A stretch of 64,000 nucleotides of DNA. Origin: an uncultured Bacteroidales bacterium. GTDB lineage: Bacteria > Bacteroidota > Bacteroidia > Bacteroidales > P3. Positions 9,957 to 32,876 of this stretch are shown here, piece by piece (the first letter of the stretch is position 1; the number at the start of each line of letters is the position of its first letter). The stretch lies in the NCBI GenBank assembly GCA_944321735.1, contig CALUMK010000004.1:1-64000 (forward strand), written 5' to 3'. The translations under genes and the position numbers were made by a program. Under the pieces are notes generated by a model. That model worked only from the letters and a program-made list of their open reading frames with translations, was not told the origin of the DNA and did no database searches.

Positions 9957-10204
9957 AGCATGATGTTTTTATTATAAGCCTTTTTATTATGAGCCACCAA
10001 TCCATCAGCCTTTCGCTTCTATACCAAATCCTCCCGATGGTAGAATGTTGCTCGGATTGCAAATTTAAGCAATTACGGCTTGCACCCGCATTGCAAGACA
10101 TCGTAGCCGGGCTTGTTGCACAGGAAACACGCATGATTCATCGAAACTACGGCAATCGCATAAAAGCTTTTCTTCTTATCTTTCTTGATATTGCATACCT
10201 CTCC

Positions 10205-11557
10205 TTACATCATAACGGAGTACAACGATTCACCATCCGTAATCAAATAGGTTCCACTATCCGTATATTTCACAATACGTGGAATATAATCCAATTCTTT
10301 CAATTTCTCCTCCACATTAGATGGAATTCCCTCATAATAAACGCCATTTTTACAGCACACAACAATACCTTTCTTCGTTGTGCATACAGACAAAATCATA
10401 CCGAATTTCTCATTAGCCGCCTCCATGACCTCCAAATCAAAATCCGTTGATGCAGCATAGTGTTCCTCCGTCACAATAGCCCAGCCGCCAGATTCATTAA
10501 TCGACACCGAATAAATCTCCTCTCCATTGTTCACATATTCCTTAATCTTCTCCGAAAGGGCTGAAGGCGTTACATGGTAACAGGAATTCCCTCCATAAAC
10601 AATGCACCAATAGGTATTGTCATTGGTAATGGTCACATCTTTAATGCGGAGTTTTTCCGCATTGATCTCTTGCAGTTTTTCAGACAGAGAAGAAGGTATA
10701 CCTATAGATGAATATCCGTTCCCTCCATATACAACTATCCCTGTACCCGTTTCTGTCAACGCTCCGGTACGGCATGCTTTCCATTCTTTCACCGCATCCA
10801 CCAATGAGGACAAGCCTTGTGCTTTATCCACATAATCAACAGAAGTACCATATAAAGAAAGACCACGAGAGGCGATGCCTGTTGTAGATTCCCTATGCAA
10901 CGAAAACGTTTTGGAAAAAAGGCGATTCCCATTATGCCATACCTCGTACCTGTATTCTCCTGGAGAAAAAATACTTCTTGTATTATTCCCCAAAGGAAAC
11001 ATAACCTCTGTATGATTTTGCCCCGGCTTAACCCAAATATAGTCATCATCGTGTTCTCCGACCAAAGCCCCATCCGAGTCGTACAATTTCGTCTCAAAAA
11101 ACACTTTCCGTCTTTCTGATACAAGTCCGTTATAGTAGATTTTAGGAGTCAAATATCTCATGTCGGATGCATACAAACGCGTCCCATAACCATCAAGCGT
11201 AACAACGGAAGTGTCCACCAAATGCATATTGGAAAAGAGCACATCGACAATTTCAATGTATCCTTTATTGGCAAGCTGCTGTTGGAGTTCTGATTCGCGC
11301 CGCTTACGCTCAGCCTCAGCTTGACGGCGTGCCGCTTCCTGCTGGGCAGTCCGACATTTGCTTATCCAAGAATCCAAGTCGTTCGAGGCCGGTTTGTCGG
11401 GACAGAAACCTGCCGCCTCGAAGAACTCCTTAGCCTTGCTGTACTGGCCTTTATTGTAAGCAGCCACTCCTTGGGATCGAGTATCCGAATAACACCCCTG
11501 TCCAAACAAAGGACAAGCAAAAAAGAGACCAAGCAAAATCACAAACAAGCACCTCAT
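10205..11557 (-). CDS. Secreted protein with the cluster's shared N-terminal module and C-terminal repeats
   Basis: A 450-residue exported protein and the last gene of the phosphorylation cluster. The signal peptide is followed by GCYSDTRSQGVAAYNKGQYSKAKEFF, a short TPR-like helix pair with paired cysteines. Then come a basic/Gln-rich coiled stretch (about 80-105) and a beta-rich module (GYIEIVDVLF, LYASDMRYLTPKIYYNGL, PGEYRYEVW). All three parts also open the next gene upstream. The last ~180 residues hold three to four imperfect repeats of the form VYGGN-x-Y-x-IPSxLxEKLxE, followed by hydrophobic strands. This resembles WG/propeller-type repeats but I cannot assign a family. The ATG at 11557 is preferred over a TTG three codons earlier. 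It is probably periplasmic or on the cell surface. Confidence 0.7.
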   Translation of the reverse strand: MRCLFVILLGLFFACPLFGQGCYSDTRSQGVAAYNKGQYSKAKEFFEAAGFCPDKPASNDLDSWISKCRTAQQEAARRQAEAERKRRESELQQQLANKGYIEIVDVLFSNMHLVDTSVVTLDGYGTRLYASDMRYLTPKIYYNGLVSERRKVFFETKLYDSDGALVGEHDDDYIWVKPGQNHTEVMFPLGNNTRSIFSPGEYRYEVWHNGNRLFSKTFSLHRESTTGIASRGLSLYGTSVDYVDKAQGLSSLVDAVKEWKACRTGALTETGTGIVVYGGNGYSSIGIPSSLSEKLQEINAEKLRIKDVTITNDNTYWCIVYGGNSCYHVTPSALSEKIKEYVNNGEEIYSVSINESGGWAIVTEEHYAASTDFDLEVMEAANEKFGMILSVCTTKKGIVVCCKNGVYYEGIPSNVEEKLKELDYIPRIVKYTDSGTYLITDGESLYSVMM

Positions 11558-11618
11558 AACAAACAAATTAAAATTTTAAAATCCACAATATCCCATAAAG
11601 ACTTCCGCCAAACAACCA

Positions 11619-13751
11619 CTACAAGAATGCGAAGGCCGCACCACACGTCCCAATCACCAAAGGAATACCAATACCCACGCTAAAAGTAGGCACTATCCGG
11701 CTTCCTGAAATCTGGCATCCAAACGCAAAATCCCACAGACTGAGAGCCGTTCCCCCCCGCCATGCAAAACGCAACCCCATATCTCCGGCAAACTCCATGT
11801 CCAACATAGCTGGCCCGGCATAAACCTGCAAATCCAAAGCCGAGATATCCGTCGTCAAACGGAACAAAGGCGCCACCGATGCAGACCAACCACCATCAAA
11901 ACCTACCAAGAACGAGGTATAAAACCCTAAATGCGTCTTGATCCAAGAATAGCTCCCACCAAGAAAAATCTCTCCATTGTCAAAATCATACCCTCCAAGA
12001 ACATCCAAAAAATGCCTTGAAAATTCTTTTTCGTACATTCCCATGGCAAAAGCCACCGGAAACAAGCTAACCCCCGCCGTCGGGATAACCGCATCCTTGG
12101 AGAACTGGCATCCCAATGACAGGCTCGCCCACGAGAAATCCCCAAAATTCGCATCATCAAAATTCATTCTCAAGCCAGCCTCGCCCATAAGATGCCACCT
12201 TTCATTCTTAAAAATCGGATCTGCAACCCCCGTATTCCAATCATACCTGACAACAGGAGCCGCGTACAATTGAAAATCTATAAACCTCCACCCCTCAGTC
12301 AATCGAAGCAAAGGACCTATGCTGAACGTAATATCACTATGCCCCAAGCCGTACATCAAGGACGTATGCAAGCCCATATGCGCCCTGACATACCCGTAAT
12401 TGAACCCAGCATAATGACGCGACACCAAATCATCACCAAAATTAAAACCGTAGCCATATTTCGGTTCAAAGAAATGTGCAGCGCAATTTTCTTCCCGGCT
12501 TATCCATCGGTCTTTCTTCAATTGAAAGAACGCATACGAAACTTGATCCCTGGTTATCCGAACCGATTTTGGAGACACGTATTTATAACCGTCTTTCTCT
12601 GCACGAACCGTATATGATCCCGGAGGCAAGTTATACCGCAGAGGCGTATGCCCGATAAATTGCGTTGTCGAGGAGGAACTTGAAATCGAGATGCCAACCA
12701 TCGGCACATTGGCCGAAACCGAAAGCGTGCCAAAAGCTTCCTCCTGCGAAACATCTATCCTCACGTCATCGTTCTTGGTTTCCACCCAGAAAAAATCCTT
12801 CCTTGCATTGCCGGCGTTCCCGTTGCACCGCAAGGTAAAGGTGTTCGATGTCTTGTTTTCTACGGAACAGAACGAAGGAACGCCCAAAAGCCTCCAATCT
12901 TCGGCATCAGTAGAGACAGCAAAAGTCTTGCTTCCTCCGTCACCGGAAAAAGAAACGGACAGGTTGCTCTTTCCATCCACCGTCAAATACGTAGATTCAT
13001 CCGGCCTTTTATACAATGAGACATATTGTGTATAGAGCTTGCGCCCTCCATACCATACCTCGTACCGGTATCGCCCTGGCCGAAAAACACTCTCGTGGCG
13101 ATTCCCTACCGGATACATTACCGCCGTATTATCACCCGGCTTCACAAAAATATAATCATCATCAAACTCCATCAAAAGATCACCCTCTCGATCATACAAC
13201 CTAGCAAAAAAATCAATCCGCCTCTCTTCCGGAACCAGCCCGTTATAATAAATCTTCGGCGCCAGATAGCGCATATCGGAAGCATACAAGGTCTCCCCAT
13301 AATCATCCAACACGTTCCAATTGCTGTCCAGATTGGCAAAAACAATATCCGTCACTTCAATGTATCCCCTTTCTTCCGATTGACGCCAAGCTTCTGACAG
13401 ACGGGACTGCTCTTCTTGTTGCCGTCGTTCTTCCTCTTCTCTCTGCCGCTGTTCCCGGTCCTCTTTTTGCCGATACTCCAAATCCAAACGCTCCTTTTCT
13501 GCGGCTTCCTGCCGTCTCGCGCTTGCCTCGATAGCAGACAGGCATTTTCGAATCCACTCATCCAAATCATGGTCTATCGGCTTGTCCGGACAACCATTCA
13601 GTGCCGCTTCAAAATACTCTTTCGCCTTAGAGTATTGGCCGTTGTTATAGGCAGAAACTCCTTGCGCACGAGTAGATTCATAACAATTTTGCCCCATCAG
13701 ACCGCATATTCCGGCCAACAAGAAAAACAAAAAAACAACAATCCTTTTCAT
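11619..13751 (-). CDS. Outer-membrane protein: TPR-like module, BACON, PEGA and beta-barrel
   Basis: A 710-residue protein. The signal peptide and NCYESTRAQGVSAYNNGQYSKAK module are followed by a Glu/Arg/Gln coiled stretch (about 80-125) and the same GYIEVTDIVF/LYASDMRYLAPKIYYNGL beta module as in the neighbour at 10205. Residues about 265-345 are BACON-like (FSGDGGSKTFAVSTDAEDW, then IDVSQEEA). Residues about 348-415 are PEGA-like (GISISSSSSTTQFIGHTPL, LPPGSYTVRAEKDGY). The last ~290 residues alternate amphipathic strands and end in an aromatic-poor strand, consistent with an outer-membrane barrel. A GTG one codon upstream is an alternative start. It is likely to form the outer-membrane end of the system. 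No enzymatic motif is seen. Confidence 0.75.
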   Translation of the reverse strand: MKRIVVFLFFLLAGICGLMGQNCYESTRAQGVSAYNNGQYSKAKEYFEAALNGCPDKPIDHDLDEWIRKCLSAIEASARRQEAAEKERLDLEYRQKEDREQRQREEEERRQQEEQSRLSEAWRQSEERGYIEVTDIVFANLDSNWNVLDDYGETLYASDMRYLAPKIYYNGLVPEERRIDFFARLYDREGDLLMEFDDDYIFVKPGDNTAVMYPVGNRHESVFRPGRYRYEVWYGGRKLYTQYVSLYKRPDESTYLTVDGKSNLSVSFSGDGGSKTFAVSTDAEDWRLLGVPSFCSVENKTSNTFTLRCNGNAGNARKDFFWVETKNDDVRIDVSQEEAFGTLSVSANVPMVGISISSSSSTTQFIGHTPLRYNLPPGSYTVRAEKDGYKYVSPKSVRITRDQVSYAFFQLKKDRWISREENCAAHFFEPKYGYGFNFGDDLVSRHYAGFNYGYVRAHMGLHTSLMYGLGHSDITFSIGPLLRLTEGWRFIDFQLYAAPVVRYDWNTGVADPIFKNERWHLMGEAGLRMNFDDANFGDFSWASLSLGCQFSKDAVIPTAGVSLFPVAFAMGMYEKEFSRHFLDVLGGYDFDNGEIFLGGSYSWIKTHLGFYTSFLVGFDGGWSASVAPLFRLTTDISALDLQVYAGPAMLDMEFAGDMGLRFAWRGGTALSLWDFAFGCQISGSRIVPTFSVGIGIPLVIGTCGAAFAFL

Positions 13752-13890
13752 CACAAAACTCTCTTTTCAAGCACTTCTAAACACAACAGCACACACTGCT
13801 GAAGCCATAACGGGGACAAAAGCATCCTTCGCACTCCTTGCCTGAAAGATTTCAAGCAGTGTCCTGACAGGATGCATTTCCCTTTCCGAA

Positions 13891-15687
13891 TTACCGATAC
13901 CGATAATAAGTCAAAGCGGATTTGTCTCCCGACAAGGCTTTTGCCAAACGCGCGTAATTGGCCGCATTCGTCTCATTACCGATACGCTCCTGAGCCTTGG
14001 CTGCTGCCGTCCATTCCTCGGCGGCTTTCTTAGATTTAGCCTGCAAAATCGCATTCAAAGACAAGCTCCTGTCAAAATCATCGTTAAACTCGCCATACTT
14101 ATCTTCATACTCCCGGATGTCCTCCATCAGAATCCTTGCTTCTACCAACTTTACCGGTTCGGAGGCACTTCCTTCTTCAACAAGATTCTTGCATTCCGAG
14201 ATGAGCCGCGAATATTCCGGATAATCGGATAACGAAGCACGGGTCAGCCCCGTAGGAAGAACGGCCAGCATAACAAAGACAACCCCGGCCAAAGAATACA
14301 TGACCCGCAACCGTTTCCAATCCATCCCTGGCTCCATCGCTTTCCATGCCGAAATCCCATTCTTCTTAATTTGCAAAATGGCCAGCAAAACCAAGGAAGA
14401 AACAACCGGATTAATCCAAGAATACCACGAAAAAGCACCTATAATCGATACCATCAATGTCCCCACAATAAGAGAGAACAAAATCACCCAATAACCAAGC
14501 CGCAAACGCTTCCACAACATCAAGCAGCCCGTAAGCTGCAGCACGCCGAACAAGGCAGCAATCTTGACAGCATGATAAATCCCCATATTGGAGGGCATCC
14601 AAAACAGGCCATCTCCGTCCGGCCTACCCAAAAACTCCACAATCGACTGAATCAACGCCAAGCTATTCGTCACAATCATCAGCCAAATCCAAAAACGGAC
14701 AAAACCATGCCGTTTGACCGGTTCATCAATCCTAGTCGCCGTAGGCTTCCCATTCAAATTTCCGTTGGGCACCGTCTGCTGCGCAGCGGCATTATCCAAG
14801 CCGCCCCCATTCTTCCTTGTTCCGCTCGCAGAAACACCTTTACCAGAAACATTGCCCTTGACCCAAGGACACGGAACAGTCCGCCCTTTTATTCTGGCAT
14901 CCGCATACTCATGCAATTGCATCGCCGTGGGTCTATCCCATGTGTCCTTTTCCAGACAAGCCCGAACCAAAGCATTCAAATCCTTGGAGAAACCATCCGG
15001 CAAATCAGGCATCTCCGCCCCACGCAGCAACATGCCGCCGCCTTGACCCATAAACGGCAATTCTCCAACCAGCAATTCATACAAAGTGACACCCAAAGCC
15101 CAAATATCAGTTGCCTTGACCGCCTCCGGATGTCCTGTAAACATCTCCGGCCCCATGTAAGCAAACGTTCCGCCCGAAGACTCGGCCACTTGCCTCCGCG
15201 TGGAGTTCCTCCGCAAAGTGCTACGCATCTTCATGCTGATACCGAAATCCGTAATCACAAAATCCCCTTCGGCATTCTGCAAGATATTATCCGGCTTGAT
15301 ATCCCGATGCAAAACATCCCGTTCATGCAAATAAGACAAGCCCGAAGACACATCGCGGATAAACTTCCATGCCATTTGTTCATCCATTCTCCCCACCAAA
15401 TCGGCCGAAGGCAAAGGACAATACGGCATGGCCAAATAGGGTCGTCTTTCACATATATCAAAGTGATTAGATTTCAACAAGTTGGGATGATTCAAGCCGA
15501 ATGTGGTCTTATATTCGGCCTTGAATTCATCTATACCCCTCTCGTCCAAAGAAATATAAACCTTCAAAGCCAGCTCCATATCCAACTGCTCGTCACGCAC
15601 CAGCCAGACTTCCCCAAAAGAACCGCTACCAACCTCCTTCAAAAGGCGATAACGATTTGCAAATAATTCGTTTACTTGTAATTCCAT
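13891..15687 (-). CDS. Ser/Thr protein kinase with polytopic membrane C-terminus
   Basis: A 598-residue Hanks-type kinase. The kinase domain covers residues 1-275, with glycine loop GSGSFGEV, the lysine in ALKVY, catalytic HRDIKPDN, DFG and the GPE version of the APE motif. The activation segment holds MRSTLRRNSTRR, as in the receptor kinases of this cluster. After a linker there are about five hydrophobic segments (residues about 330-490) and a C-terminal helical part of about 100 residues (SDYPEYSRLISECKNLVEE onwards) that should be periplasmic. It lacks the formylglycine-enzyme domain of its paralogues. The ATG at 15687 gives the MELQVNELFANRYRLL start shared with them. It follows the FHA-DUF805 gene by 97 bp on the same strand. 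Confidence 0.9.
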   Translation of the reverse strand: MELQVNELFANRYRLLKEVGSGSFGEVWLVRDEQLDMELALKVYISLDERGIDEFKAEYKTTFGLNHPNLLKSNHFDICERRPYLAMPYCPLPSADLVGRMDEQMAWKFIRDVSSGLSYLHERDVLHRDIKPDNILQNAEGDFVITDFGISMKMRSTLRRNSTRRQVAESSGGTFAYMGPEMFTGHPEAVKATDIWALGVTLYELLVGELPFMGQGGGMLLRGAEMPDLPDGFSKDLNALVRACLEKDTWDRPTAMQLHEYADARIKGRTVPCPWVKGNVSGKGVSASGTRKNGGGLDNAAAQQTVPNGNLNGKPTATRIDEPVKRHGFVRFWIWLMIVTNSLALIQSIVEFLGRPDGDGLFWMPSNMGIYHAVKIAALFGVLQLTGCLMLWKRLRLGYWVILFSLIVGTLMVSIIGAFSWYSWINPVVSSLVLLAILQIKKNGISAWKAMEPGMDWKRLRVMYSLAGVVFVMLAVLPTGLTRASLSDYPEYSRLISECKNLVEEGSASEPVKLVEARILMEDIREYEDKYGEFNDDFDRSLSLNAILQAKSKKAAEEWTAAAKAQERIGNETNAANYARLAKALSGDKSALTYYRYR

Positions 15688-15784
15688 CTCAAAAAATTTA
15701 TAAACCAACCAAAACTCCAAGCACCCCAAACGGGATTTGCAGATTCTCCTTTTGCATCTCCCGTCTCCGAGCTTCCTATAAAAA

Positions 15785-16504
15785 CTATCGTGTCCCCTTC
15801 AGCAGCTTGGGATTTTTCCCGTAACGATTCGTTCCCGGTTCGCTATCCTGGCAGAACCATACTATCATCAAAATCCAACCCACCAAAGGAATCACGCTCA
15901 ACAAGTAAAACCAACCACTCCGCCCTGTATCATGCAAACGGCGAACCGCCAACGCCAAACCCGGAATCAAAACAGCCAAACTCCATACCCAACCTAAATA
16001 AGGAATCCACACCACCAAAACATTCAGCAAGGCAAACCACCAAAACTCACTCCGCCTAGCACGCCCCGAAAATGTAGCATAGTTTGAAAAGACGTTCGAG
16101 ATAGCCTTGCCAAAGGAAAGCGGATTCGTGTCCATAACCGACTCACATTCCCCATAACCTTCATTTCTGCCACTCTTGACTGCACCTTGAACCTGATTGG
16201 GATTCCATCCGTGCGACATTGGACGAGTCTGGTTCATCCGTACTGTTTTTGGAATCCCTGTTCCTCCCACAATCGCCCAATCCAAGCGTTCTCCCCCTGG
16301 AAATACGACCTCATCGTTCCGGGAAATCCTGACTTGACCATTCCGGACAGTTTTCCCTTTCACCAATGTCCCGTTGGTGCTATGGTCCACATACAAGAAA
16401 GAGCCATCATTTTCTTCATACAGTGTGGCATGATGCCCGCTCACTTCCGGATTAGCCACCACAATGTCGTTATCCGAGGCTCTTCCTATTCTTATCTGTT
16501 TCAT
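15785..16504 (-). CDS. FHA domain fused to DUF805 membrane domain
   Basis: A 239-residue protein. The N-terminal FHA domain (residues 1-80) binds phosphothreonine peptides and shows IGRASDNDIVV, VSGHHATLY and STNGTLVKG. Residues about 125-239 are a DUF805 membrane domain (FSGRARRSEFWWFALL, RRLHDTGRSGWFYLL, DSEPGTNRYGKNP) with three or four membrane segments. The fusion places a phospho-reader at the inner membrane. The gene starts 5 bp after the PP2C stop, so the two are surely co-transcribed, with the kinase gene following. The partner phosphoprotein is unknown; activation-loop threonines of the neighbouring kinases are obvious candidates. Confidence 0.9.
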   Translation of the reverse strand: MKQIRIGRASDNDIVVANPEVSGHHATLYEENDGSFLYVDHSTNGTLVKGKTVRNGQVRISRNDEVVFPGGERLDWAIVGGTGIPKTVRMNQTRPMSHGWNPNQVQGAVKSGRNEGYGECESVMDTNPLSFGKAISNVFSNYATFSGRARRSEFWWFALLNVLVVWIPYLGWVWSLAVLIPGLALAVRRLHDTGRSGWFYLLSVIPLVGWILMIVWFCQDSEPGTNRYGKNPKLLKGTR

Positions 16505-16509
16505 CTCGT

Positions 16510-18291
16510 TTATTCTTTGTTATTAACAGTATCGCTAATTAAGGTATCACCATTCACAGGAGCGCTTGTCTGCCGCAATACCGGCTTTCCCGGTTCTTCC
16601 GATTCCGGAATCCGAACCAATTTATCCGTTGCTTGCCCATCTCCGTTGCCGAAAGATGAAGATCCTTTACCGCCCAACAAGGGCTTCTTCTCTTCACTTG
16701 GAAGTACTCGGAGATTCGCAAGAGAATCAACAAGCACTTTTTTGTCTTCCTTTTTGCTTGTTCCAGACGAAAAACCGTCCCGGAAATTTTCCCAATCTCT
16801 CCTCTTTTGATCCAGTTCCTCCAGCGTCTTGCACTTCCACAAAGCATCCTTCAATCCGTTCAAACCCTCTTTCTGCCTGTCATTCAACGCCTTTTCATCA
16901 TAGAAAACATCCATTTCCTGACACAGCACATCCAAAAAGGCCTTGAACTGCTCCGCTTGCGATACCGCATCGTCGCCATTGAAAACCGTATTCCGTACAG
17001 AATCCATCAGCCTGTTCACAAAAACCATGAAACCGGTCCCGGCATCGCGCCGCAACCCATCCAACCGTTCCAAAGCCTCGACCTGCATGGCAACTGCATC
17101 TTTCAAATCCGCCACCAACAACGAATCCAACCCATCGGACTGCAACACTTTGCTCACAGAATCACAATAAAAGGTCAAACCATTTTCCGAAGCCAGCTTA
17201 CGGACATCCTCCAATTCCGACCGCCATTGTTCCTGCGCTGCATCACCTGCAAGGAACTTGGCTTTCACAAACCATCCCAGAGCAAACACGACCACTATAG
17301 CCGCCACAATCGCCGCTACACGCCGCAAAGTCCGTTTCCTGACCTTGAAACTGATAACGCTCGGCTGAGCCGCACCATTTCCCGGTATATCGGTCTTAGA
17401 CACAGGCTCTTGAAACACCTTGTATTCCATTTCTTCCGGAGGGCAAGTCTCGCCTTCCGTTATCTCGCAAAGGATTGCCGTCACGTTGTCGTACCAGTCG
17501 GCATTCTCCGCCGCCTGCCACAACGCCTCCCGACAAGCCCGCATCGAAGAACGGTTCTGCGCCATAATCTCCGACATTTCCCTGTCGCGCAGCACCCCGC
17601 TCAAACCATCGCTGCACAACATCAGTATATCTCCCTTATAGACAGGAAAAGTCAAACTGTCGGCCACCGCTTTCTTTTCAGGATCGCCAAGGCTGCGCGT
17701 GATAATGTTCCCATACGGGCTGTCGAACGCCTGGTCTGGAGTCAAGATACCGGCATCCACCTGTTCCTGCACATACGAATGATCCTTTGAAACCTGCCTC
17801 AAGCCCGAAGGCCCGCGAAACAAGTAAGCCCGGCTATCGCCGCACCAAGTCACCGACAATTGGCCATGGCAGAGCCACGCCAGAATCAAGGTGCTGCCCA
17901 TCCCTTCACACTCCTTGTTTTTCTTGGCAAATGTCTTGATAGCTGTATCCGATTCCTCCACCACCTTTTCCATGAATGCCTCGCGAGCCTTGGCCGTCTT
18001 GATTTCCACCTTGGAAATATTCTCGCTTGCAAAGCAACGCTCCACCGTATCGATAGCAATCTTCGAGGCCACTTCCCCGGCGTTCATTCCTCCCATGCCG
18101 TCAGCTACCACCATCAGCATCCCTTTTTCCGACAACGCCACCACCTTATCCGCTTCAAATTCGCCTTGCGTGGCATTTCCCAAATCGGCATCGACAAACA
18201 GATTGTCCTCGTTGCCCTTGTTGGGCGCATCATTGTTCCACTTTCCTGCCGGATCCGTGTAGGCAGTAAGCCTGAATTGGATTCGTTTCAT
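16510..18291 (-). CDS. PP2C-type Ser/Thr phosphatase with transmembrane and helical C-terminus
   Basis: A 593-residue protein. Residues 1-270 are a PP2C/SpoIIE-like phosphatase with the metal-binding aspartates in GNEDNLFVD, VVADGMGGMNAGEVAS, LMLCSDGLSG and YDNVTAIL, plus GMGSTLI and WCGDSRAYLF. It should remove phosphate from Ser/Thr set by the neighbouring kinases. One membrane segment follows at about 335-355 (AAIVAAIVVVFALGWFV), then a mostly helical, charged tail of about 230 residues that would lie in the periplasm. PP2C with a long extracytoplasmic tail is unusual and suggests a second sensing or scaffold role. It is upstream of FHA-DUF805 with 5 bp between. Confidence 0.93.
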   Translation of the reverse strand: MKRIQFRLTAYTDPAGKWNNDAPNKGNEDNLFVDADLGNATQGEFEADKVVALSEKGMLMVVADGMGGMNAGEVASKIAIDTVERCFASENISKVEIKTAKAREAFMEKVVEESDTAIKTFAKKNKECEGMGSTLILAWLCHGQLSVTWCGDSRAYLFRGPSGLRQVSKDHSYVQEQVDAGILTPDQAFDSPYGNIITRSLGDPEKKAVADSLTFPVYKGDILMLCSDGLSGVLRDREMSEIMAQNRSSMRACREALWQAAENADWYDNVTAILCEITEGETCPPEEMEYKVFQEPVSKTDIPGNGAAQPSVISFKVRKRTLRRVAAIVAAIVVVFALGWFVKAKFLAGDAAQEQWRSELEDVRKLASENGLTFYCDSVSKVLQSDGLDSLLVADLKDAVAMQVEALERLDGLRRDAGTGFMVFVNRLMDSVRNTVFNGDDAVSQAEQFKAFLDVLCQEMDVFYDEKALNDRQKEGLNGLKDALWKCKTLEELDQKRRDWENFRDGFSSGTSKKEDKKVLVDSLANLRVLPSEEKKPLLGGKGSSSFGNGDGQATDKLVRIPESEEPGKPVLRQTSAPVNGDTLISDTVNNKE

Positions 18292-18446
18292 ATCCTTTTT
18301 GTTTAAAATCGTTCAACCTTTATCGCGCATCGCCTAATCAGCGCAACCCTTTCTCTTTCAACATTCCTCCGGCTAAATACAGAAACCGACCCGACCGGAT
18401 GCCTCGTTCCACCCCCTAAAAGACATTCCGGCCATAGTCGATTCCC

Positions 18447-20912: not shown

Positions 20913-20918
20913 ATCCCT

Positions 20919-21656: not shown

Positions 21657-21793
21657 TCTCTCTCTTTTATTGTAGTTATACTATATAATCCTTGGCATCT
21701 CCATCAGACCGTGGCTTTGGCGGCTTGCTCCGCTGGCCGCTCGCCCTTGACTCGCCGGGGCAGTACGGCAAGGACGGGATGCCGTGCAGCAAG

Positions 21794-23794: not shown

Positions 23795-23847
23795 TGTTTT
23801 TCCTCTTTATCTTATCCTATCTTTCAATCCGTGGTACAACTTGTTAT

Positions 23848-23885
23848 TTACATTTCCAGGACCAAGCGCAGCCCATTAAAGTAAT
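23848..23885 (-). pseudogene. Orphan 3' end of a receptor-kinase gene
   Basis: The minus strand reads NYFNGLRLVLEM and a TAA stop (23848-23850), the C-terminus of a further kinase-FGE gene, with no gene body attached. It abuts the conserved 3' flank of copy 2 and precedes the start of copy 1 by about 50 bp. It is best explained as a remnant left when a new copy replaced or was inserted into an older one. Confidence 0.6.
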
Positions 23886-23976
23886 TCTGGCTGTCTTGGG
23901 CGGCGGCTTGCTCCGCTGGCCGCTCGCCCTTGGCCCGCCGGGGCAGTACGGCAAGGACGGGATGCCGTGCAGCAAA

Positions 23977-25857: not shown

Positions 25858-25894
25858 TGTTTCTTCTCTTTATCCTTGTCCTACGTCTAAAGCA

Positions 25895-25944
25895 TCAAAG
25901 CTCAAGTGCCAAGCGCAATCCGCTGTCGACACCCTTCTCAATCC
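25895..25944 (-). pseudogene. Second orphan 3' end of a receptor-kinase gene
   Basis: The minus strand reads IEKGVDSGLRLALEL and a TGA stop (25895-25897). GLRLALEL matches the GLRLVL terminus of the FGE-fold kinases, but the rest of the gene is gone. It sits 37 bp before the start of copy 2, the same relative position as the orphan end before copy 1. Confidence 0.5.
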
Positions 25945-25973
25945 ATTGAGTCCCCACCAAACACTACCAACTC

Positions 25974-26684
25974 CTATTCCTCTGAATCATCAGACATAGT
26001 GTTCACTATCAAGGCGTTTCTTATCACGGAATCCCAGTGTTGCAGCCCTTCTTGAGACTCCAAAATCCCTTCCCAAGTATCCAAAAACCAACACACTCTA
26101 CCTGAGCTTCCTTCTGGCACGGAAACCGAGGAAGGTGCTGTGCTGAATTCATACCACGGCAATTCCGTAACTTCTTGAAAGGAATATGGATTCAACACAT
26201 AAAAATCCGGATTCGGATATTCATGCAGTTCTATACTTCCATAAATCACGGCATACATATACAAGGTATCCGAAGTGGCGTTATGTACGTAATTAGAAGA
26301 AAACCGCAGCCGTTCTTTTTCCGGCAACCCGAACCCGCCATCATACGAACCCACAATTTTGTGTCTTTCACTGCGGTACATAGAAGAGCGATAACTTTCC
26401 CCCTCTTCCACCACGAGAACCTCGGGTACAGGTATACACATGAAAAATAATCCCACCAAAAAGCCGCCCAGTATCGAAAGGATAATCCACCTGGTCCGTA
26501 GAGCCCTGCGACTTAACGCCTTCTTACCATATGAATCCCTACGATCCAAATCAGACCTTTCCTCCACCCCTGTCCATCGTTCGTCCGGCATCCTCTTCCT
26601 TCCCCAACACCAGAAAAGCAAGAATGAGCCAAAACAAAAAAGCAACAATCCGGTCAGAAACAACATTCCATCACCGATTTCCAT
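25974..26684 (-). CDS. Two-pass membrane protein of unknown family
   Basis: A 236-residue protein with membrane segments at about 7-27 (MLFLTGLLLFCFGSFLLFWCW) and about 67-87 (WIILSILGGFLVGLFFMCIPV), joined by a basic cytoplasmic loop rich in Arg/Ser. The ~145-residue C-terminal domain is probably periplasmic and beta-rich (SDTLYMYAVIYGSIEL, SGRVCWFLDTWEGIL). I do not recognise it. It starts 8 bp after the zinc-ribbon membrane protein gene, so the two form a pair within the cluster, between receptor kinases 3 and 2. Confidence 0.65.
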   Translation of the reverse strand: MEIGDGMLFLTGLLLFCFGSFLLFWCWGRKRMPDERWTGVEERSDLDRRDSYGKKALSRRALRTRWIILSILGGFLVGLFFMCIPVPEVLVVEEGESYRSSMYRSERHKIVGSYDGGFGLPEKERLRFSSNYVHNATSDTLYMYAVIYGSIELHEYPNPDFYVLNPYSFQEVTELPWYEFSTAPSSVSVPEGSSGRVCWFLDTWEGILESQEGLQHWDSVIRNALIVNTMSDDSEE

Positions 26685-26692
26685 ACTTACAA

Positions 26693-27004
26693 TTATTTAT
26701 CTGTTATCATTATTTTTATCAATCGCACAAGCCAAATCAAGAAGTAAATCCCACCTACAGTGATTGCACCCACATAAATCGCATTATCACTGGCTATCGT
26801 GGCCACTACACCAAGAATCAAAAGGGCAAAAGAGACCAAAGTACCCCTCACGGCTTTGCCGAGGCTATTGCTTTCCTTGGCTGCTTCCGGCTTTACAGTC
26901 GGCTGCCTTGGGGGATAATCAACCTGTTTTCCCAATGACGCACCACATTTTTCGCAAGTCACCCTGCCTTCCGGATTTCTCCACCCGCAATTCGAACAAA
27001 CCAT
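26693..27004 (-). CDS. Small zinc-ribbon membrane protein
   Basis: A 103-residue protein. Residues 1-25 are a zinc ribbon of the form CSNCGWRNPEGRVTCEKCG (two CxxC knuckles). A Pro/Lys linker and two membrane segments at about 52-70 and 75-95 follow. The ribbon is closely similar to the first ribbon of the FHA protein at 31377-32210 (CKNCGWENASGNARCEKC), so the two proteins in this cluster share an ancestor. The role is unknown; such ribbons often mediate protein contacts. Confidence 0.75.
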   Translation of the reverse strand: MVCSNCGWRNPEGRVTCEKCGASLGKQVDYPPRQPTVKPEAAKESNSLGKAVRGTLVSFALLILGVVATIASDNAIYVGAITVGGIYFLIWLVRLIKIMITDK

Positions 27005-27127
27005 AGCGCTATTCTTTTTTAGTTAGCATTTCATTTTGCCCATACAGTACAACCCAACATCAAGTATGGAGACCGCCACCCTTGGCTCGCCGAACCCAGC
27101 ACGGCGGACGGATGCCCGTACGGTAAA

Positions 27128-29134
27128 CTAAGGGGCAAGCACCAAGCGCAGCCCGTTGACGTTCCGGTAGCCGGGGTCGCTGCGGCTCCGGTTCGAGACC
27201 CGGCAGAGCCCCGCATTGAGGATAAAGCTGCCGCCCCGCAAGACGCGGTCGGCTCCGCTAGCAGGACCCGACGGGTTCCGCTGCGACGAACTGCTATACC
27301 TGCCGTACCAGTCATAGCACCATTCGTACACGTTCCCGCTCATGTCATAAAGCCCCAACTCGTTCGCCTGCTTCTGCCCCACCGGGTGCGTTCGGTTCCC
27401 GCTGTTCCCCTCATACCACGCCACGCTCCCCAAGTCGTAGGTGCTCCCGCTGTACTTGTAGCCCCGGCTCTTTTGTCCGCCCCGCGCCGCGTATTCCCAT
27501 TCCGCCTCGGTCGGCAAACGGAAGTTCAAGCCCGTCCTGCTGTTCAGCCACTCGATGAACCGCTGGCAGTCCTCCCAGCTCACCATCTCCACCGGATAGT
27601 TGTCCCCCGCCTTGTTATAGCTCGGATTCTCGCCCATCACTTCCTTCCACAAGCCCTGCGTCACTTCGTACTTCCCGATATGGAAATCGGACAAGGTCAC
27701 GCTGTGGACCGGCTTTTCATCGTCATAGGCATCGCTCCCCTGCTCCGCCGTCGCCCCCATCTGGAATGTCCCGCCCTGCACGTACACCATCTCAAACGAG
27801 ACATTCCCGACCCGGATAGTCCGGTTCGAGGTGGCTCTCCGCCGAGCTTCCGCCTCCCGTTGCTGCCGTGCCTTCTCCTGCTCCTCCCTGCGGGCCGCCT
27901 CTTCGCGTGCCTTTCTCTGTTCCTCGGCTTGCCGACGTTCCTCCGCTTCGCGTGCTTGCCGCTGGGCTTCAGCTTCAGCATTGGCGATGCTGTCCTGACG
28001 GGCTTTTTCTGCAAAGGCTATTCGTTCTCTTTCCTCCTGTTCCGCCCGTCTCTGATTGTTCTGCTGCACCGATATGCCCGCAACACCTACCACCAACAAC
28101 AAGGCTAACGCTATGGCTATCCACATCGTTTTCTTCCTGCCTTTGCCCTCCTTAGCCTCCGGCACTGTTCCCCCGGCCTTCCCTTGCTCCTCCGCCATCG
28201 GCACGGTCTGCCCCTTGCCGCTTTGAGGAACCGTTTGCTTCCCCATCCCTTTATCCCCGCCTTCCTTGCTTGCCGGGTTTCCTGTCTGGCCGCCCTTGCC
28301 TTGATTTTTCCAGGGCATCGCCGGATTCTCGCCCCTCAGCTTGGCCTCCGCGTATGAATGCATCTGCTCCGCTGTCGGTCGCTCCCACGAATCCCTTGCC
28401 ATGCAGGCTTCCAACACCCCCTGCAAATCGTTCCCGTAACCCTCCGGTATCTCCGGCGTCTCCGCCCCGTGTAGCTGCATCACGCCCCCTTGACCCATGA
28501 ACGGAAGCTCCCCGCTCAACAACTCGTACAGGGTCGCTCCCAACGCCCATATGTCTGTCGCCTTCACCGCTTCCGGCTTCTTCCCGAACAGCTCAGGTCC
28601 CATGTAGCCTATCGTACCTGCCATCTCCCCCTGCTGCATCTGCCGGGTCGAGTTCCGCCGCAACGTGCTACGCATCTTCAGGCTCACCCCGAAGTCCGTT
28701 ATCAGGAATGTCCCATCCTCCCCAATCAGCACGTTGTCCGGCTTGATGTCCCGGTGGACGATGTCCTTCTCGTGCAGATACGCCAAGCCCCCCGACACGT
28801 CCCGGACGAACCGCCAAGCCGTTGTCTCGTCCAGATTCTCTATCAGGTCCACCGTCGAAGACGGGCAGTATGGCATCACCAAATAAGGCCGTTTCTCATA
28901 CACATCAAAGTAGGTGGCATGGAGCAGGTTGGGGTGGTTCAGGGCATAAGTGGTCTTGTACTCCCCCTTGAACTCCTCTATTCCCCGCTCGTCCAAGGCG
29001 ATATACACTTTCAACGCCAGCTCCAAGTCTAACTGCTCGTCCCGCACCAGCCATACCTCCCCGAAACTTCCCCGGCCCACCTCTCTGATCAGCCGGTATC
29101 GGTTCGCAAAGATCTCGCCTGCTTGCAATTCCAT
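27128..29134 (-). CDS. Receptor-like Ser/Thr kinase with formylglycine-enzyme-fold ectodomain (copy 3)
   Basis: A 668-residue paralogue of copies 1 and 2. The kinase domain (1-275) is more diverged (ATYFDVYEKRPYLVMPYCPS, FGVSLKMRSTLRRNSTRQ) but keeps GRGSFGEV, HRDIKPDN and DFG. From about codon 270 through the linker, membrane segment (about 335-355) and stalk it is nearly identical to copy 1. The FGE-fold ectodomain (about 438-668) again lacks the paired catalytic cysteines and ends RVLRGGSFILNAGLC...GYRNVNGLRLVLAP. The ATG at 29134, 6 bases after an AAAGGTG ribosome site, is preferred over a GTG two codons earlier. It begins 20 bp after the coiled-coil motor-partner gene. Confidence 0.92.
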   Translation of the reverse strand: MELQAGEIFANRYRLIREVGRGSFGEVWLVRDEQLDLELALKVYIALDERGIEEFKGEYKTTYALNHPNLLHATYFDVYEKRPYLVMPYCPSSTVDLIENLDETTAWRFVRDVSGGLAYLHEKDIVHRDIKPDNVLIGEDGTFLITDFGVSLKMRSTLRRNSTRQMQQGEMAGTIGYMGPELFGKKPEAVKATDIWALGATLYELLSGELPFMGQGGVMQLHGAETPEIPEGYGNDLQGVLEACMARDSWERPTAEQMHSYAEAKLRGENPAMPWKNQGKGGQTGNPASKEGGDKGMGKQTVPQSGKGQTVPMAEEQGKAGGTVPEAKEGKGRKKTMWIAIALALLLVVGVAGISVQQNNQRRAEQEERERIAFAEKARQDSIANAEAEAQRQAREAEERRQAEEQRKAREEAARREEQEKARQQREAEARRRATSNRTIRVGNVSFEMVYVQGGTFQMGATAEQGSDAYDDEKPVHSVTLSDFHIGKYEVTQGLWKEVMGENPSYNKAGDNYPVEMVSWEDCQRFIEWLNSRTGLNFRLPTEAEWEYAARGGQKSRGYKYSGSTYDLGSVAWYEGNSGNRTHPVGQKQANELGLYDMSGNVYEWCYDWYGRYSSSSQRNPSGPASGADRVLRGGSFILNAGLCRVSNRSRSDPGYRNVNGLRLVLAP
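27131..27247 (-). other. Variable-region-like 3' end of receptor kinase copy 3
   Basis: 39 codons aligned with the ends of copies 1 and 2. This copy keeps the most AAC/AAT codons (for example AAT, AAC, AAC, AAC) at variable positions, so it may be nearest to a hypothetical adenine-rich template. Confidence 0.55.
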
Positions 29135-29154
29135 AATCACCTTTATTTACCATT

Positions 29155-30054
29155 TCATTTCACCACTCGACCTTCGCCCCATTGCGGTTCCCGGTGTGGC
29201 AACATCTCAAAACCGTAATCCGTAAGACGGAACGTCACAACGCAACGTGTTCCCGTTCCCGATAACGCCACAGGCCCTATTTCATGACGCTGCTCATCGG
29301 GTTTGCCCGGATGAAAAATCATGACCACTTTGACATTGGCCCTGAAGGATTTCGATCCCTCATAAATATTGACCCACAAAGTGTATTCTTCCGGATAGAT
29401 CCGGGGCACGTAAAACAGCTCGAACCGTTCCTTGTCGTCATCCACCCGTTCCCGCACATCCTCCCCTAAAATTCCCCAGGGTTTGGAAGGATACATTCTC
29501 CAACAATGTTCTGCGTCCTGCCCGAATTTCTGCACTCCCATATCCACATCTACATCGAGTTCCTCCCAGCGGCACAGAATTCCAAACTGAGCAAACACAC
29601 CCAAAGTCTTTTCCACCGTGTTGGCTGTTCGCTCGGCATCTTCTTTCTCTTTCAGTTTGGCTTTGGCTGCACCCAATTGTTCCCGCAGGCGTTCCAATTC
29701 GGTCTGCTGCTCTGCCACCGTGGCCTCCAATGCCGCATTCCGTGATTGAACGGAAGCAATATCGTCCTCTAACTGATTTATCCGCACTTGCAAATCCGCT
29801 ACATCCTGCCTGAGTTCATCCAATTCCTCATCTATTGACTGTAGAACATCCTTGGGTACGCTATTCTCTATTCGCTCCACTATCTGGTCAATATCCAAAG
29901 CCAGCTTTTCTATTTCCTGGGCTTTATGTATCAAATCGGCATCAGCCTGCGACATCTTGGGCACAATGATGAACAGAATGATTACTGCCCCCAAGGCTCC
30001 GGAAAGCAAGTCGAGGAAGGAAGTCCCGAAGATATTGATACCTGCCCGGCGCAT
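29155..30054 (-). CDS. Single-pass coiled-coil protein, candidate MotB/ExbD-like motor partner
   Basis: A 299-residue protein. The N-terminal segment FGTSFLDLLSGALGAVIILF (about 9-28) is a membrane helix with an aspartate near its cytoplasmic end, the layout of MotB/ExbD/TolR/ZorB proton-channel partners. A long coiled coil (about 35-145) and a C-terminal beta-rich domain (about 160-299) follow; no OmpA peptidoglycan-binding motif is seen. A MotA/ExbB-type protein is encoded in the same cluster at 20919-21656. The gene starts 1 bp after the kinase-FHA stop, so the two are coupled. The assignment as motor partner rests on the helix pattern and on context. Confidence 0.65.
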   Translation of the reverse strand: MRRAGINIFGTSFLDLLSGALGAVIILFIIVPKMSQADADLIHKAQEIEKLALDIDQIVERIENSVPKDVLQSIDEELDELRQDVADLQVRINQLEDDIASVQSRNAALEATVAEQQTELERLREQLGAAKAKLKEKEDAERTANTVEKTLGVFAQFGILCRWEELDVDVDMGVQKFGQDAEHCWRMYPSKPWGILGEDVRERVDDDKERFELFYVPRIYPEEYTLWVNIYEGSKSFRANVKVVMIFHPGKPDEQRHEIGPVALSGTGTRCVVTFRLTDYGFEMLPHREPQWGEGRVVK

Positions 30055-30055
30055 T

Positions 30056-31330
30056 TCAGTATCCCTCCACCCTGAGTTTCACATCGCCTATAGAAATAAT
30101 GTCGCCCGGATAAATCGGCATCCCCATCTCGTCCACTTCGGACGAATTGACATACGTGCCATTGAGCGACTTTTTCCAGCCCGAGCCTTTCTGGAACTGG
30201 CCATCCCGGATATACCAGCCTCCCGTCTCGGTGTCCTGTTCCAAAGTGCAGTGGCAACGGGAAATGTAACAGTCATTGTCCCTAATGGCAATGGAGTTCT
30301 GAACGGACTCGTCATAACGACCCAAGGTGACTATACGCCGGTATCCGGACAAGAAATCATTCAGTTTGTACGTCTTGCCGTATTCCTCGCCTTGCATCAC
30401 ACGCAACAAGACTCCATTGCAAATAGTATAAATAGCGGAACGCATAAAGCTGTCTTCAGGTTTCCGCTCCCTCTGCGGCAACATCTGCAATACCTGCTCT
30501 GTGTTCTGTATCCGTGTCTTGAAATCGGGAACCAGACAGCCTTCAATTATCGGGGTCCAGATTGATTTAGAATCCCGGCGCTTCAAAGCGGAACAATCCC
30601 AGCGGCCATTCTTGCCGTTTTCCAAATAACGACCCAGCGTGGCTTCGGTCAGTTCGCCAAAAGGCAATGTCCCTACAATCATCTCGTACATCATCACTCC
30701 GAACGAGAAAATGTCGGTAGTAGGCAATACGGTAGCCCTGCCGCCACGAGGCGGGTTGACTTGTTCGGGCGGCATATAAGGATAGGTGCCGAATATCTGG
30801 GTGGGTTTGCCAAGCCATCCTCGCTCGGTCATCCGTTTGTTCTGGTCGCCGGAGATACCGAAATCGGTCAGGACTGCGGTATTGTCGGAACGCAACAGCA
30901 CGTTTTCCGGCTTCAAATCCCGATGAACCTTGCCGTGGCTATGCAAGTCGCGCAATCCGCAAAGCACGTCCGATGCCACTGTCACGTAATCAATATTACC
31001 CGATGCCACATACGAACGCAGATCCCCATTAGGGCAAAACTCCATCAGCATATAGGGATTGCCATAGACCTGGCCATAGGTATAGGAATGGACCAAGTAG
31101 TTGCTTTGAATCCTTGCCGTCTCAAACTCCATGACAAACCGGTCTGTAAGGTTTTTGCAGGCTTCTGGCGGAACAGTCCAAAGTTTGAGCAATTTGAGGG
31201 CGCATACCCGATTTTCGGTATCCCTTACCTTATAGACCGAACCGAATGTACCCTCTCCCAAAGCTTTTTCGACGAGGTATTTTCCGTCTATGGCATCGCC
31301 TCTATGAAATTCACACCTTTCGTACACCAT
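30056..31330 (-). CDS. Ser/Thr protein kinase with C-terminal FHA domain
   Basis: A 424-residue soluble protein. The kinase domain (about 10-275) has GEGTFGSV, the lysine in ALKLL, VHRDLKPEN, DFGIS and PPEQ; it is of a different subgroup from the other kinases of the cluster. The FHA domain (about 320-424) shows TLGRYDESVQNSIAI, ISRCHCTLEQ and LNGTYVNSSEV. No membrane segment is seen, so it is probably a cytoplasmic relay whose FHA domain binds phosphorylated partners or its own kinase domain. It follows the zinc-ribbon FHA gene by 46 bp and precedes the coiled-coil gene by 1 bp. Confidence 0.93.
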   Translation of the reverse strand: MVYERCEFHRGDAIDGKYLVEKALGEGTFGSVYKVRDTENRVCALKLLKLWTVPPEACKNLTDRFVMEFETARIQSNYLVHSYTYGQVYGNPYMLMEFCPNGDLRSYVASGNIDYVTVASDVLCGLRDLHSHGKVHRDLKPENVLLRSDNTAVLTDFGISGDQNKRMTERGWLGKPTQIFGTYPYMPPEQVNPPRGGRATVLPTTDIFSFGVMMYEMIVGTLPFGELTEATLGRYLENGKNGRWDCSALKRRDSKSIWTPIIEGCLVPDFKTRIQNTEQVLQMLPQRERKPEDSFMRSAIYTICNGVLLRVMQGEEYGKTYKLNDFLSGYRRIVTLGRYDESVQNSIAIRDNDCYISRCHCTLEQDTETGGWYIRDGQFQKGSGWKKSLNGTYVNSSEVDEMGMPIYPGDIISIGDVKLRVEGY

Positions 31331-31376
31331 GGATGTTGTTTCTTTGCTTAGAGAATATTACCGCCCAAGACCATAA

Positions 31377-32210
31377 TCAGGCATTGAATTCAAACCTGCG
31401 GTTTCCCAGGATGATGGTATCGCCCGATTGCAGCTTTATCTTGTTTTTGGCATGAACATAAGTAGTTTGCTGTGCGCTCTTGTCAATGATATACCACTCC
31501 CCATTCTCGCATATCAATTCTGCCTGCTGCTGGGATGTGATTGTCTGATTATTGGGATCCGTATTGGCCCGATTGAGAATGATATTGTTGCCGGAATAGG
31601 ACAAAGGATTGAATTGGATATCCTCCTTTTCCCAGGCTATCGGTCGGAGGGTACAAAACTTATTTTCCCCTTGTGGCGTCGCCCAAGGATTGACAGTTCC
31701 CATACGTTTAGGGGTTCCGCAAACAGGACAGAAACGGGCTCCCTTAGGGATAGGCTGACCGCATTGACGGCATTTTTCTCCTTCTGCCGCATGGGGAGAT
31801 GGAGAAGACGGGACAAGGTCGGCTCTAGAATCAAACCGAAACGCTGATTTATTTCCTGAAGAGGATTGCATTTCCGCACCGCAGTTGGGGCAATGTTTGC
31901 TCTGCGGAGCAAGCATGTATCCGCATTGCGGGCAAGAAACCAGACTACTGCCGGAAGACTTGCCGACTTGAGAGGATTGAGAGGAAGGTCTCGCCCCCGA
32001 TTCAGCATGACTCGGCTCAACAGGAGAGCTTCCAAAGAATTGCGCCTCTGAAACTGTGGCATGCAAATTGACTTCGCCCCCCCCGGCTGAGCCAGAGTGA
32101 CCCGCCCGATAATCATTTTCTTCAATCATTGATCCCATTAACGGAGCATTGCATTTTTCACAACGGGCATTGCCGGAAGCATTCTCCCAGCCACAGTTCT
32201 TGCATCTCAT
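31377..32210 (-). CDS. Triple zinc-ribbon protein with C-terminal FHA-like domain
   Basis: A 277-residue protein and the first gene of the phosphorylation cluster. Three zinc ribbons are visible: CKNCGWENASGNARCEKC at the start, CPQCGYMLAPQSKHCPNCG at about 95, and CRQCGQPIPKGARFCPVCG at about 150. The C-terminal ~85 residues are a degenerate FHA domain (ILNRANTDPNNQTITSQQQA, WYIIDKSAQQTTYVHAKNKI, GDTIILGNRRFEF). The IGR arginine is retained but the SxxH motif is altered, so phosphothreonine binding may be lost. The ATG at 32210 puts the first CxxC at residue 3; a longer reading upstream is unlikely. Confidence 0.8.
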   Translation of the reverse strand: MRCKNCGWENASGNARCEKCNAPLMGSMIEENDYRAGHSGSAGGGEVNLHATVSEAQFFGSSPVEPSHAESGARPSSQSSQVGKSSGSSLVSCPQCGYMLAPQSKHCPNCGAEMQSSSGNKSAFRFDSRADLVPSSPSPHAAEGEKCRQCGQPIPKGARFCPVCGTPKRMGTVNPWATPQGENKFCTLRPIAWEKEDIQFNPLSYSGNNIILNRANTDPNNQTITSQQQAELICENGEWYIIDKSAQQTTYVHAKNKIKLQSGDTIILGNRRFEFNA

Positions 32211-32267
32211 AAATACACAATTATTTAATTTTCGATAAATATATTTCCTGTTTTTATTGACAAAAAA

Positions 32268-32535: not shown

Positions 32536-32876
32536 CCTCCCAACAGAAATATCTCTAAGGCCGAATTAAAACGGAATCTTGCTATAAAAGAATTGAAGAT
32601 CTAAAAAGACACGCAAGACAATTTCTTCTCTCAAAAAAACTCTATTCACCAGCATTGCCACGATAGTCCGAAAAGCGAAACTCGCTCGACCATCGCTTAA
32701 CTTGTCTTGAACAAGAAATACTATGCAAATGCAACTATCTTAGAAACCGGCAATTCCCGCTTCAGTCGACCCAGTTGCCCGGACTATGACATCCATAAAC
32801 GCACCTAATTTCTTTAGATTCAAAGCATTTCAATCCCTCTCTGTATTCTACCCCATTCCCATAGCGGTGCGTTTTT

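Follow-up and report, generated by a model that had tools for sequence, protein, structure and literature searches.

A sporadic, sixteen-gene Ser/Thr phosphorylation operon of Bacteroidota and its possible relay from phosphothreonine signalling to envelope proteolysis

Sixteen genes that lie side by side on one strand of DNA from an uncultured Bacteroidales bacterium (lineage P3) encode protein kinases, FHA proteins, a phosphatase, a protease and a candidate motor, and they raise the question of whether they form one system and what such a system would do. The stretch analysed, called the window, is 64,000 nucleotides long and comprises positions 1-64,000 of the forward strand of contig CALUMK010000004.1 (assembly GCA_944321735.1). 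The 16 open reading frames (ORFs) occupy 10205-32210, all on the minus strand, and are lettered from A at the low-coordinate end to P at the high end. The cluster is not a chance assembly, and its 16-gene content is one elaborate version of a core of six to eight genes. At about even probability, we read it as a sporadic, envelope-spanning phosphothreonine signalling cassette of Bacteroidota in which a relay would end in regulated proteolysis outside the inner membrane.

What was computed directly is which genes are present, how far the operon and its catalytic residues are conserved, and how the site varies. A sequence-only reading of the window had counted, in 16 same-strand genes, five kinases, one PP2C phosphatase, four FHA proteins, zinc-ribbon proteins, a MotA/ExbB-type channel with a candidate coiled-coil partner, a membrane-tethered protease and two outer-envelope proteins. 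All 16 ORFs are present, and Pfam confirmed the kinases (C, I, J, M and O), the phosphatase (E), the FHA domains (D, G, O and P, that of P degenerate), the zinc ribbons (L and P) and the channel (H); the coiled-coil partner (N) and the membrane-tethered protease (G) were also borne out. Two of its statements stand in part. Gaps of 0-10 bp, said to be many, occur at 5 of the 15 junctions (0, 1, 5, 6 and 8 bp), and the other 10 measure 20-182 bp. Of the two supposed outer-envelope proteins, B has a PEGA domain by Pfam; the outer location of both is presumed, that of A because it has no Pfam match. The gene for F was absent from that reading's list. The features, with transmembrane (TM) segments as indicated, are as follows.

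31377..32210, minus: P, adaptor of 277 aa, zinc ribbon / linker / zinc ribbon / linker / degenerate FHA (Pfam DZR, zinc ribbon, FHA; 71/80 loci)
32055..32057, minus: Thr52 of P, candidate phosphothreonine 1, consensus K-T-V-R-E (Thr in 70/70 rows, Glu at +3 in 59/70)
31695..31697, minus: Thr172 of P, candidate phosphothreonine 2, consensus G-T-[VI]-N-P-[WY] (Thr in 70/70 rows, Pro at +3 in 56/70)
30056..31330, minus: O, Ser/Thr kinase with C-terminal FHA, 424 aa, no TM-like segment; putative hub kinase (Pfam; alignments)
29155..30054, minus: N, MotB/ExbD-like candidate motor partner with TM Asp15, coiled-coil stalk and C-terminal beta-sandwich, DUF2135-like (12-row alignment, model)
27128..29134, minus: M, kinase, TM, FGE-sulfatase (SUMF1-like) domain (Pfam; one TM-like segment by hydropathy)
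26693..27004, minus: L, zinc-ribbon protein of 103 aa with two TM-like segments (Pfam Zn_Ribbon_1; hydropathy)
25974..26684, minus: K, membrane protein of 236 aa with two TM-like segments (no Pfam hit at E 0.001; hydropathy)
23977..25857, minus: J, kinase, TM, FGE domain; close paralogue of I (Pfam; DNA comparison with I)
21794..23794, minus: I, kinase, TM, FGE domain (Pfam)
20919..21656, minus: H, MotA/TolQ/ExbB-family channel of 245 aa with four TM-like segments (Pfam MotA_ExbB, E 1e-12; 11-row alignment; hydropathy)
19338..20912, minus: G, FHA (56-120), TM (163-181), trypsin-like protease (~285-517) (Pfam Trypsin_2; conserved residues; PDB sequence search)
18447..19337, minus: F, secreted protein of 296 aa, predicted trypsin-fold pseudoprotease (model, Foldseek, motif count)
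16510..18291, minus: E, PP2C phosphatase, one TM-like segment and a C-terminal part beyond it (Pfam; hydropathy)
15785..16504, minus: D, FHA-DUF805 membrane protein (Pfam; 22/80 loci)
13891..15687, minus: C, kinase with four TM-like segments (Pfam; hydropathy)
11619..13754, minus: B, N-terminal hydrophobic segment and PEGA domain, presumed outer-membrane protein (Pfam; hydropathy)
10205..11566, minus: A, same family as B, N-terminal hydrophobic segment (hydropathy; no Pfam match; 41% identity to B in alignment A9)

The conservation of the operon was followed from G. A 4-row FHA-protease alignment, seeded by two peptide patterns, was searched against one genome per species (84,980 species) and gave 81 related places, of which the best 80 are the loci counted here. 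Their titles place 79 of them in Bacteroidota; the remaining one, a 'Clostridia' metagenome-assembled genome (L068), clusters with a Bacteroidales row in the G tree. Barnesiella sp. An22 and Palleniella intestinalis are examples of commensals that carry the operon naturally. Around G the order is zinc-ribbon-FHA protein, Ser/Thr kinase-FHA protein, optionally the motor pair, FHA-protease, secreted protein, PP2C, optionally FHA-DUF805, and receptor Ser/Thr kinase. Profiles for each family, built from 1-5 seeds and liable to miss divergent members such as F, found G in 79 loci, E in 76, O in 73, P in 71, the Ser/Thr kinase in 68, F in 60, D in 22, B in 17, and A, N and H in 11 each. In the 45 well-flanked loci, which have at least 4.5 kb upstream and at least 4 kb downstream of G, its same-strand neighbours include E (44), P (43), the Ser/Thr kinase (43), O (42), F (33), D (13), N (6) and H (5), and the five commonest neighbour pairs have median gaps of 3-24 bp. 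The distance matrices of P, O, G, F and E correlate (Spearman 0.23-0.49), with nine of the ten pairs exceeding all 200 permutations and P-F failing to do so; since shared ancestry was kept in, this shows joint inheritance and not interaction.

The same genome holds a second copy on contig C6 (66637-77601), in the order P, O, D, Ser/Thr kinase, G, F, E and A-like, with proteins 34-64% identical to those of the window (blastp) and with no blastp hit for the motor pair; the two copies sit in different clades of the G tree. It is because the same operon recurs in loci found with G alone, and again in this second copy, that the cluster cannot be called a chance assembly. The check proposed with the sequence-only reading, whether the genes occur separately in relatives, came out in its favour, and its interpretation is supported. 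All 7 FHA hits in the genome (E <= 0.001) fall in the window cluster or the sister region on C6, as do all 12 Pkinase hits over the Pfam cut-off (59-95 kb on C6); a 13th, below the cut-off, lies on contig C36.

The cassette is nevertheless sporadic. Among the source genome and 60 related genomes, 8/61 match, with a whole FHA-protease in the source genome, G016 and G052 and the FHA part only in the other five. A scan of the order matched 10/295 genomes, the source included (G279 in the protease part only), and a scan of the phylum 3/395, again with the source. Loci L064, L107 and L104 correspond to G016, G052 and G063 and add no further evidence, because those genomes are already counted. The DNA of loci L059 and L065, whose titles name different families, is 81.6% identical across 6.9 kb, which points to transfer without proving it. 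The sister region on C6 (L008/L009, 58000-95000) also carries more kinase-FGE genes and a CHAT-domain protein, with relatives in L034 and L051 and next to the G052 cluster (L026, L027). Five loci in other genomes of the order (L028, L029, L030, L031 and L032) hold different clusters with FHA, PP2C-like and kinase-like genes, apparently other systems. H in L065 (6954-7729) and both O and G in L111 are each broken into two ORFs, by decay or sequencing error.

The position of the cluster also varies in content between close relatives. Two genomes of the same genus, G011 and G001, match the window flanks on both sides at 94-97% DNA identity over kilobase stretches, with drops to 88-89% across a SIMPL gene (34024-34827) and to 83-87% in short stretches beside the right edge. 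What lies between the flanks is 22.4 kb in the window, about 20 kb of other genes in G011, and in G001 a stretch of about 2 kb whose one ORF encodes 361 aa. G001 also lacks the DUF4836 gene at 8448-9956, and for that reason the left edge is placed further out relative to that genome.

10099..32508, no strand: variable insert relative to same-genus genome G011 (flank matches end there; contents differ in all three genomes)
8430, no strand: left edge of the variable insert relative to G001 (flank comparison)

The cluster is cargo of a variable site. The window may have gained it, or G011 and G001 may have lost it; either direction fits. Base composition gave no transfer signal (GC 51.3% in the insert, 50.6% and 50.7% in the flanks), and the insert ends showed one 10-bp direct repeat and no longer direct or inverted repeat. 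Two similar palindromic sequences upstream of P (~32268-32297 and ~32555-32585) were seen by eye and are possible regulator sites or element ends; beyond them, at 32877-33812, lies a gene of a PD-(D/E)XK transposase family (Pfam) with no match in G011 or G001. Two pattern matches to Bacteroides-type promoters were found inside the cluster, both within genes A and B. Of the 21 ORFs in the G011 insert (L187 and L190, contig C69), the 10 that were scanned include two AAA ATPases matching IetA models, a pair of proteins with FGE domains and an M48 peptidase; matches to DO-GTPase2 and sigma-70 stayed below threshold. A recombinase-like family lies directly upstream of the cluster in L065, L068 and L073, and in L060 it sits two genes upstream; by eye only, it looks like Bacteroides tyrosine recombinases.

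What such a cassette could do is suggested first by the adaptor. The alignment of P has 70 rows, that of the window among them, once sequences shorter than 190 aa are excluded. Thr52 and Thr172, both in linkers, are invariant in it, and no other Ser or Thr that window P has from residue 25 to residue 200 is kept in more than 25 rows. Alignment programs can shift a lone Thr into register; a shuffle test, which is independent of the alignment, counted 166 T[VI] pairs before the FHA domain against 51.2 +/- 6.6 in 2000 shuffles (maximum 73), and S[VI] in the same region was not enriched (49 vs 61.6). A further conserved threonine, Thr5, stands near the N-terminus of G (Thr in 69/77 rows).

The enzymes that would write, read and erase such marks retain their functional residues. 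In O, kinase residues K46, D138, N143 and D156 are conserved in at least 95% of 69 rows, and the FHA core is kept as Gly337 (69), Arg338 (65), Ser357 (69), His360 (68) and Asn390 (69). In E, D64, D228 and D268 are conserved in at least 95% of 73 rows. I, J and M are kinase-TM-FGE-sulfatase proteins by Pfam, with TM segments by hydropathy. The DNA of I and J (21794-25857) is identical across about 100 kinase-domain codons, and the last ~70 codons are rich in non-synonymous differences, a pattern such as gene conversion would leave if the sensor end keeps diverging. The FGE C-termini of I, J and M are rich in such differences and resemble the variable regions of diversity-generating retroelements. 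Such an element was rejected: the genome, 94.67% complete, had no match to reverse transcriptase (PF00078, RVT_1) at E 0.001, and a DNA search gave six FGE-kinase genes and 15 hits of at most 31 bases.

G joins an FHA domain to a protease across one TM segment, and the key residues of both parts are conserved. Each of eight core FHA residues is kept in 76 or 77 of 77 rows, and in the catalytic triad His300 is kept in 74, Asp415 in 76 and Ser487 in 76. In PDB sequence searches the FHA part matches 'Forkhead-associated 1' (6c4u, 5.6e-6) and GarA (7.2e-6) best, and the protease part HtrA1/DegQ (2e-4 to 3e-4). Next to G, F begins with what by eye resembles a signal peptide, although the hydropathy cut-off did not flag it. 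Its model (mean predicted local distance difference test score, pLDDT, 87.9) gave 19 Foldseek hits at E <= 0.001 with probability 1.00, among them TEV protease, Rv3671c, DegQ, HtrA1 and DegS. The serine-loop motif is found in 0/59 rows of F and [TS]A.H somewhere in 2/59, a combination of fold and missing motifs that points to a pseudoprotease. Secreted proteins of the A/B cluster occur in 47/80 loci at 40% coverage, a clustering that may chain unrelated members through BACON domains; a scan of 60 proteins, A and B of the window included, detected BACON in 31.

The motor pair is an optional part. H carries a MotA_ExbB domain (PF01618) and N has a single TM segment with Asp15 invariant in 12/12 rows, features of the MotAB/ExbBD family of ion-conducting 5:2 assemblies, and from these sequences H and N are predicted to be an ion-driven MotA/MotB-like pair. 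H matches ExbB, MotA, TolQ and PomA structures at E 0.06-0.43. After a coiled coil (~36-151), N ends in a modelled beta-sandwich tip (mean pLDDT 72.6, TM region under 50); its C-terminal part matches the ends of ~970-1230 aa reading frames in other Bacteroidota, its DUF2135 match is weak (E 0.078, in one of seven sequences, Pfam), and a structure search with N gave no PDB match at E <= 0.001. Both proteins occur together in 10 of the 80 loci and are adjacent in all 10, unlike in the window, where the FGE-kinase block I-M sits between them. A two-sequence N profile matched 3/295 genomes of the order. A 12-row profile matched 28/395 of the phylum, of which the source, G550, G591 and G542 align from the first or second residue and the rest in the coiled coil or C-terminal part only. 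N, H and G occur together in the source, G052, G063, G550 and G591. On contig C19 of G542 (L140), 5.9 kb hold H-like (MotA-like), PP2C-like, FHA and N-like genes together, with no G on that contig; this locus is a distant variant, and its N-like match covers TM and stalk only. On the midpoint-rooted G tree, with short contigs scored as lacking the motor, its distribution takes 10 changes, and well-supported branches require no fewer than 9 of these. The most distant relatives of G, L138 and L139, have the motor beside it, as do the deep rows L104 and L107; no motor was called in L106 or L114, which branch just as deeply. Repeated gain of the module, or an old origin followed by many losses, would fit this distribution.

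From these parts we infer a relay, including its kinase-substrate pairs, FHA docking, protease gating, motor role and membrane topology. Receptor kinases (kinase, TM, variable outer part) and the hub kinase O would phosphorylate P at Thr52 and Thr172; O and the transmembrane protease G would bind the phosphorylated P through their FHA domains, and this binding would cluster the complex at the inner membrane and switch the periplasmic protease of G. F may act as a regulator or substrate holder for G, A and B are likely sensed or cleaved partners, and the PP2C phosphatase E would reset the system. Some versions, the window included, would add the ion-driven H/N pair, whose stalk could pass force or position to periplasmic parts. 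By analogy with the GarA/OdhI switch and anchored HtrA proteases, a phosphothreonine relay best fits the parts list.

Several results weigh against the relay or parts of it. The FHA domain of P keeps Arg214 (64/70) and Ser226 (65/70) and has Gln in 64/70 rows where the usual FHA pattern has His; because that His is absent, the domain may not read phosphothreonine. The T[VI] motif is not general, since it is weak in the receptor-kinase linkers (30 vs 23.8 +/- 4.6 in shuffles, no clear enrichment) and present in the D linker of only 14/24 D rows, and a general T[VI] docking code was rejected on those two counts. The query TM-scores of the Foldseek hits to F are modest at ~0.3-0.4, and a profile comparison of F with the protease part of G is weak (probability 7%) though the expected stretch aligned, so that F as a trypsin-fold pseudoprotease is likely, not certain. 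F was also not called in 12 of the 45 well-flanked loci; as it diverges fast, some of these may be misses.

If the relay is right, the operon would link phosphothreonine reading to regulated envelope proteolysis and, in some versions, to an ion-driven motor, a combination not found in the literature searched. It looks like a self-contained, transferable Ser/Thr network in which readers and an eraser accompany the receptor kinases and the two-site adaptor, with the periplasmic protease as a plausible output, and its single-residue predictions are testable. A bolder form holds that a proton-driven motor, the phosphothreonine-gated TM protease and its pseudoprotease partner make up one complex, with receptor kinases writing its assembly onto the two-site adaptor; this is tentative and in our view more doubtful than probable. 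Were it true, a new kind of envelope machine would convert a surface event into mechanical work and regulated proteolysis on the periplasmic side.

The alternative that survives best is an immune or inter-bacterial conflict system, in which the receptor kinases would detect phage or competitor at the envelope and the protease or an unrecognised effector would kill or arrest the cell. The scarcity of the cassette in its order (10/295), its presence or absence at one site with alternative cargo including AAA proteins and a sub-threshold DO-GTPase2 match, the recombinase-like genes seen by eye just upstream in L065, L068 and L073, and a PP2C together with a kinase-FHA protein, as in an anti-phage module (excerpts of PMC11341870), all agree with it. 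Yet there is no obvious toxin, and neither relatives of G in viral contigs nor relatives of G or N in plasmids were found. PADLOC, run on 10/16 cluster proteins, returned only part-length kinase, protease, channel and coiled-coil matches, the best to mad6 over the kinase part. A defence island was rejected on PADLOC results for 122 of 133 listed downstream proteins (143 upstream proteins left out, no background control), which matched 26 families by a single protein each. We consider the conflict reading unlikely.

A proton-driven envelope machine of Tol-Pal, Ton or Gld type, with assembly under phosphorylation control, H/N as the real output and the protease as quality control, we think decidedly unlikely. 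The invariant Asp15 of N and the place of the motor beside G in the most distant and some deep rows speak for it; against this, L106 and L114 are as deep with no called motor, N and H are each confined to 11/80 loci with at least 9 forced changes (some 'no motor' rows being truncated contigs), and the rest of the operon persists without a motor. A T6SS-type (type VI secretion system) threonine phosphorylation pathway, controlling a secretion apparatus elsewhere, would also bring kinase, PP2C and FHA together with membrane and envelope partners, but it is very improbable and largely refuted: the one profile searched for T6SS genes, VipA/TssB (PF05591), had no match in the source genome at its stated completeness, and E. 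coli was its sole match among 14 control genomes. Nor does any of the 16 proteins carry the vWA domain of TerY (Pfam, in a search confined to the cluster and not extended to Ter genes elsewhere in the genome). The sequence-only reading had stated that neither T6SS nor Ter genes are present in the cluster, and on the absence of VipA from the genome and of vWA from the cluster a T6SS or Ter origin was rejected. Chance assembly of unrelated signalling genes, whose individual families are common, is refuted by conserved order and strand, the second copy and the discrete insert, and its probability is negligible.

The sequence-only reading knew of no described system of this composition, and this agrees with a literature search in which no published description of the operon was recognised, bioRxiv preprints and most subscription papers lying outside that search. 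Known systems resemble it in parts. Like ZorAB of Zorya, the cluster has a ZorA-like channel, H, which matches ZorA weakly (E 5.5e-6, PADLOC); H is however only 245 aa long, against ZorA profiles of 461-590. ZorA has a long tail and ZorB an OmpA-like domain, whereas N ends in a modelled beta-sandwich, with no OmpA among the matches listed for it, and ZorC and ZorD were not seen among the 10/16 cluster proteins scanned by PADLOC. The trypsin-like domain of G, with its catalytic triad behind a single TM-like segment, recalls DegS and HtrA, in which PDZ domains have a role; G differs in having an FHA domain across the membrane and no PDZ by Pfam.

PppA is the phosphatase of the T6SS threonine phosphorylation pathway. 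That PpkA/PppA/Fha pathway, as far as excerpts of PMC12607579 describe it, likewise has a membrane kinase, an FHA scaffold and an outer-membrane partner, and kinase, PP2C and FHA are clustered here too; the window cluster differs in lacking a sheath match in its genome and in fusing FHA to a protease. The anti-phage kinase-kinase-phosphatase (KKP) module, in excerpts of PMC11341870, similarly places a PP2C (here E), a kinase-FHA protein (here O) and a second kinase in one operon. Its PfkA carries a cold-shock domain that Pfam did not find in the 16 window proteins, and nothing in those excerpts refers to a membrane protease, an adaptor, a motor or an envelope protein. A further trait of KKP is prophage carriage; viral contigs yielded no relative of G. 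Kinase, FHA and trypsin-like parts also feature in other conflict systems, according to excerpts of PMC7159879.

An analogy for the proposed switch is GarA/OdhI, in which, according to excerpts of PMC2784874, an FHA protein has a conserved Thr elsewhere in its chain. G shares this arrangement through its Thr5 and P through Thr52 and Thr172, and the FHA domain of G matches GarA in the PDB sequence search. The difference lies in where the threonines stand: here the invariant ones are in a zinc-ribbon adaptor, P, and another is found near the N-terminus of a membrane protease.

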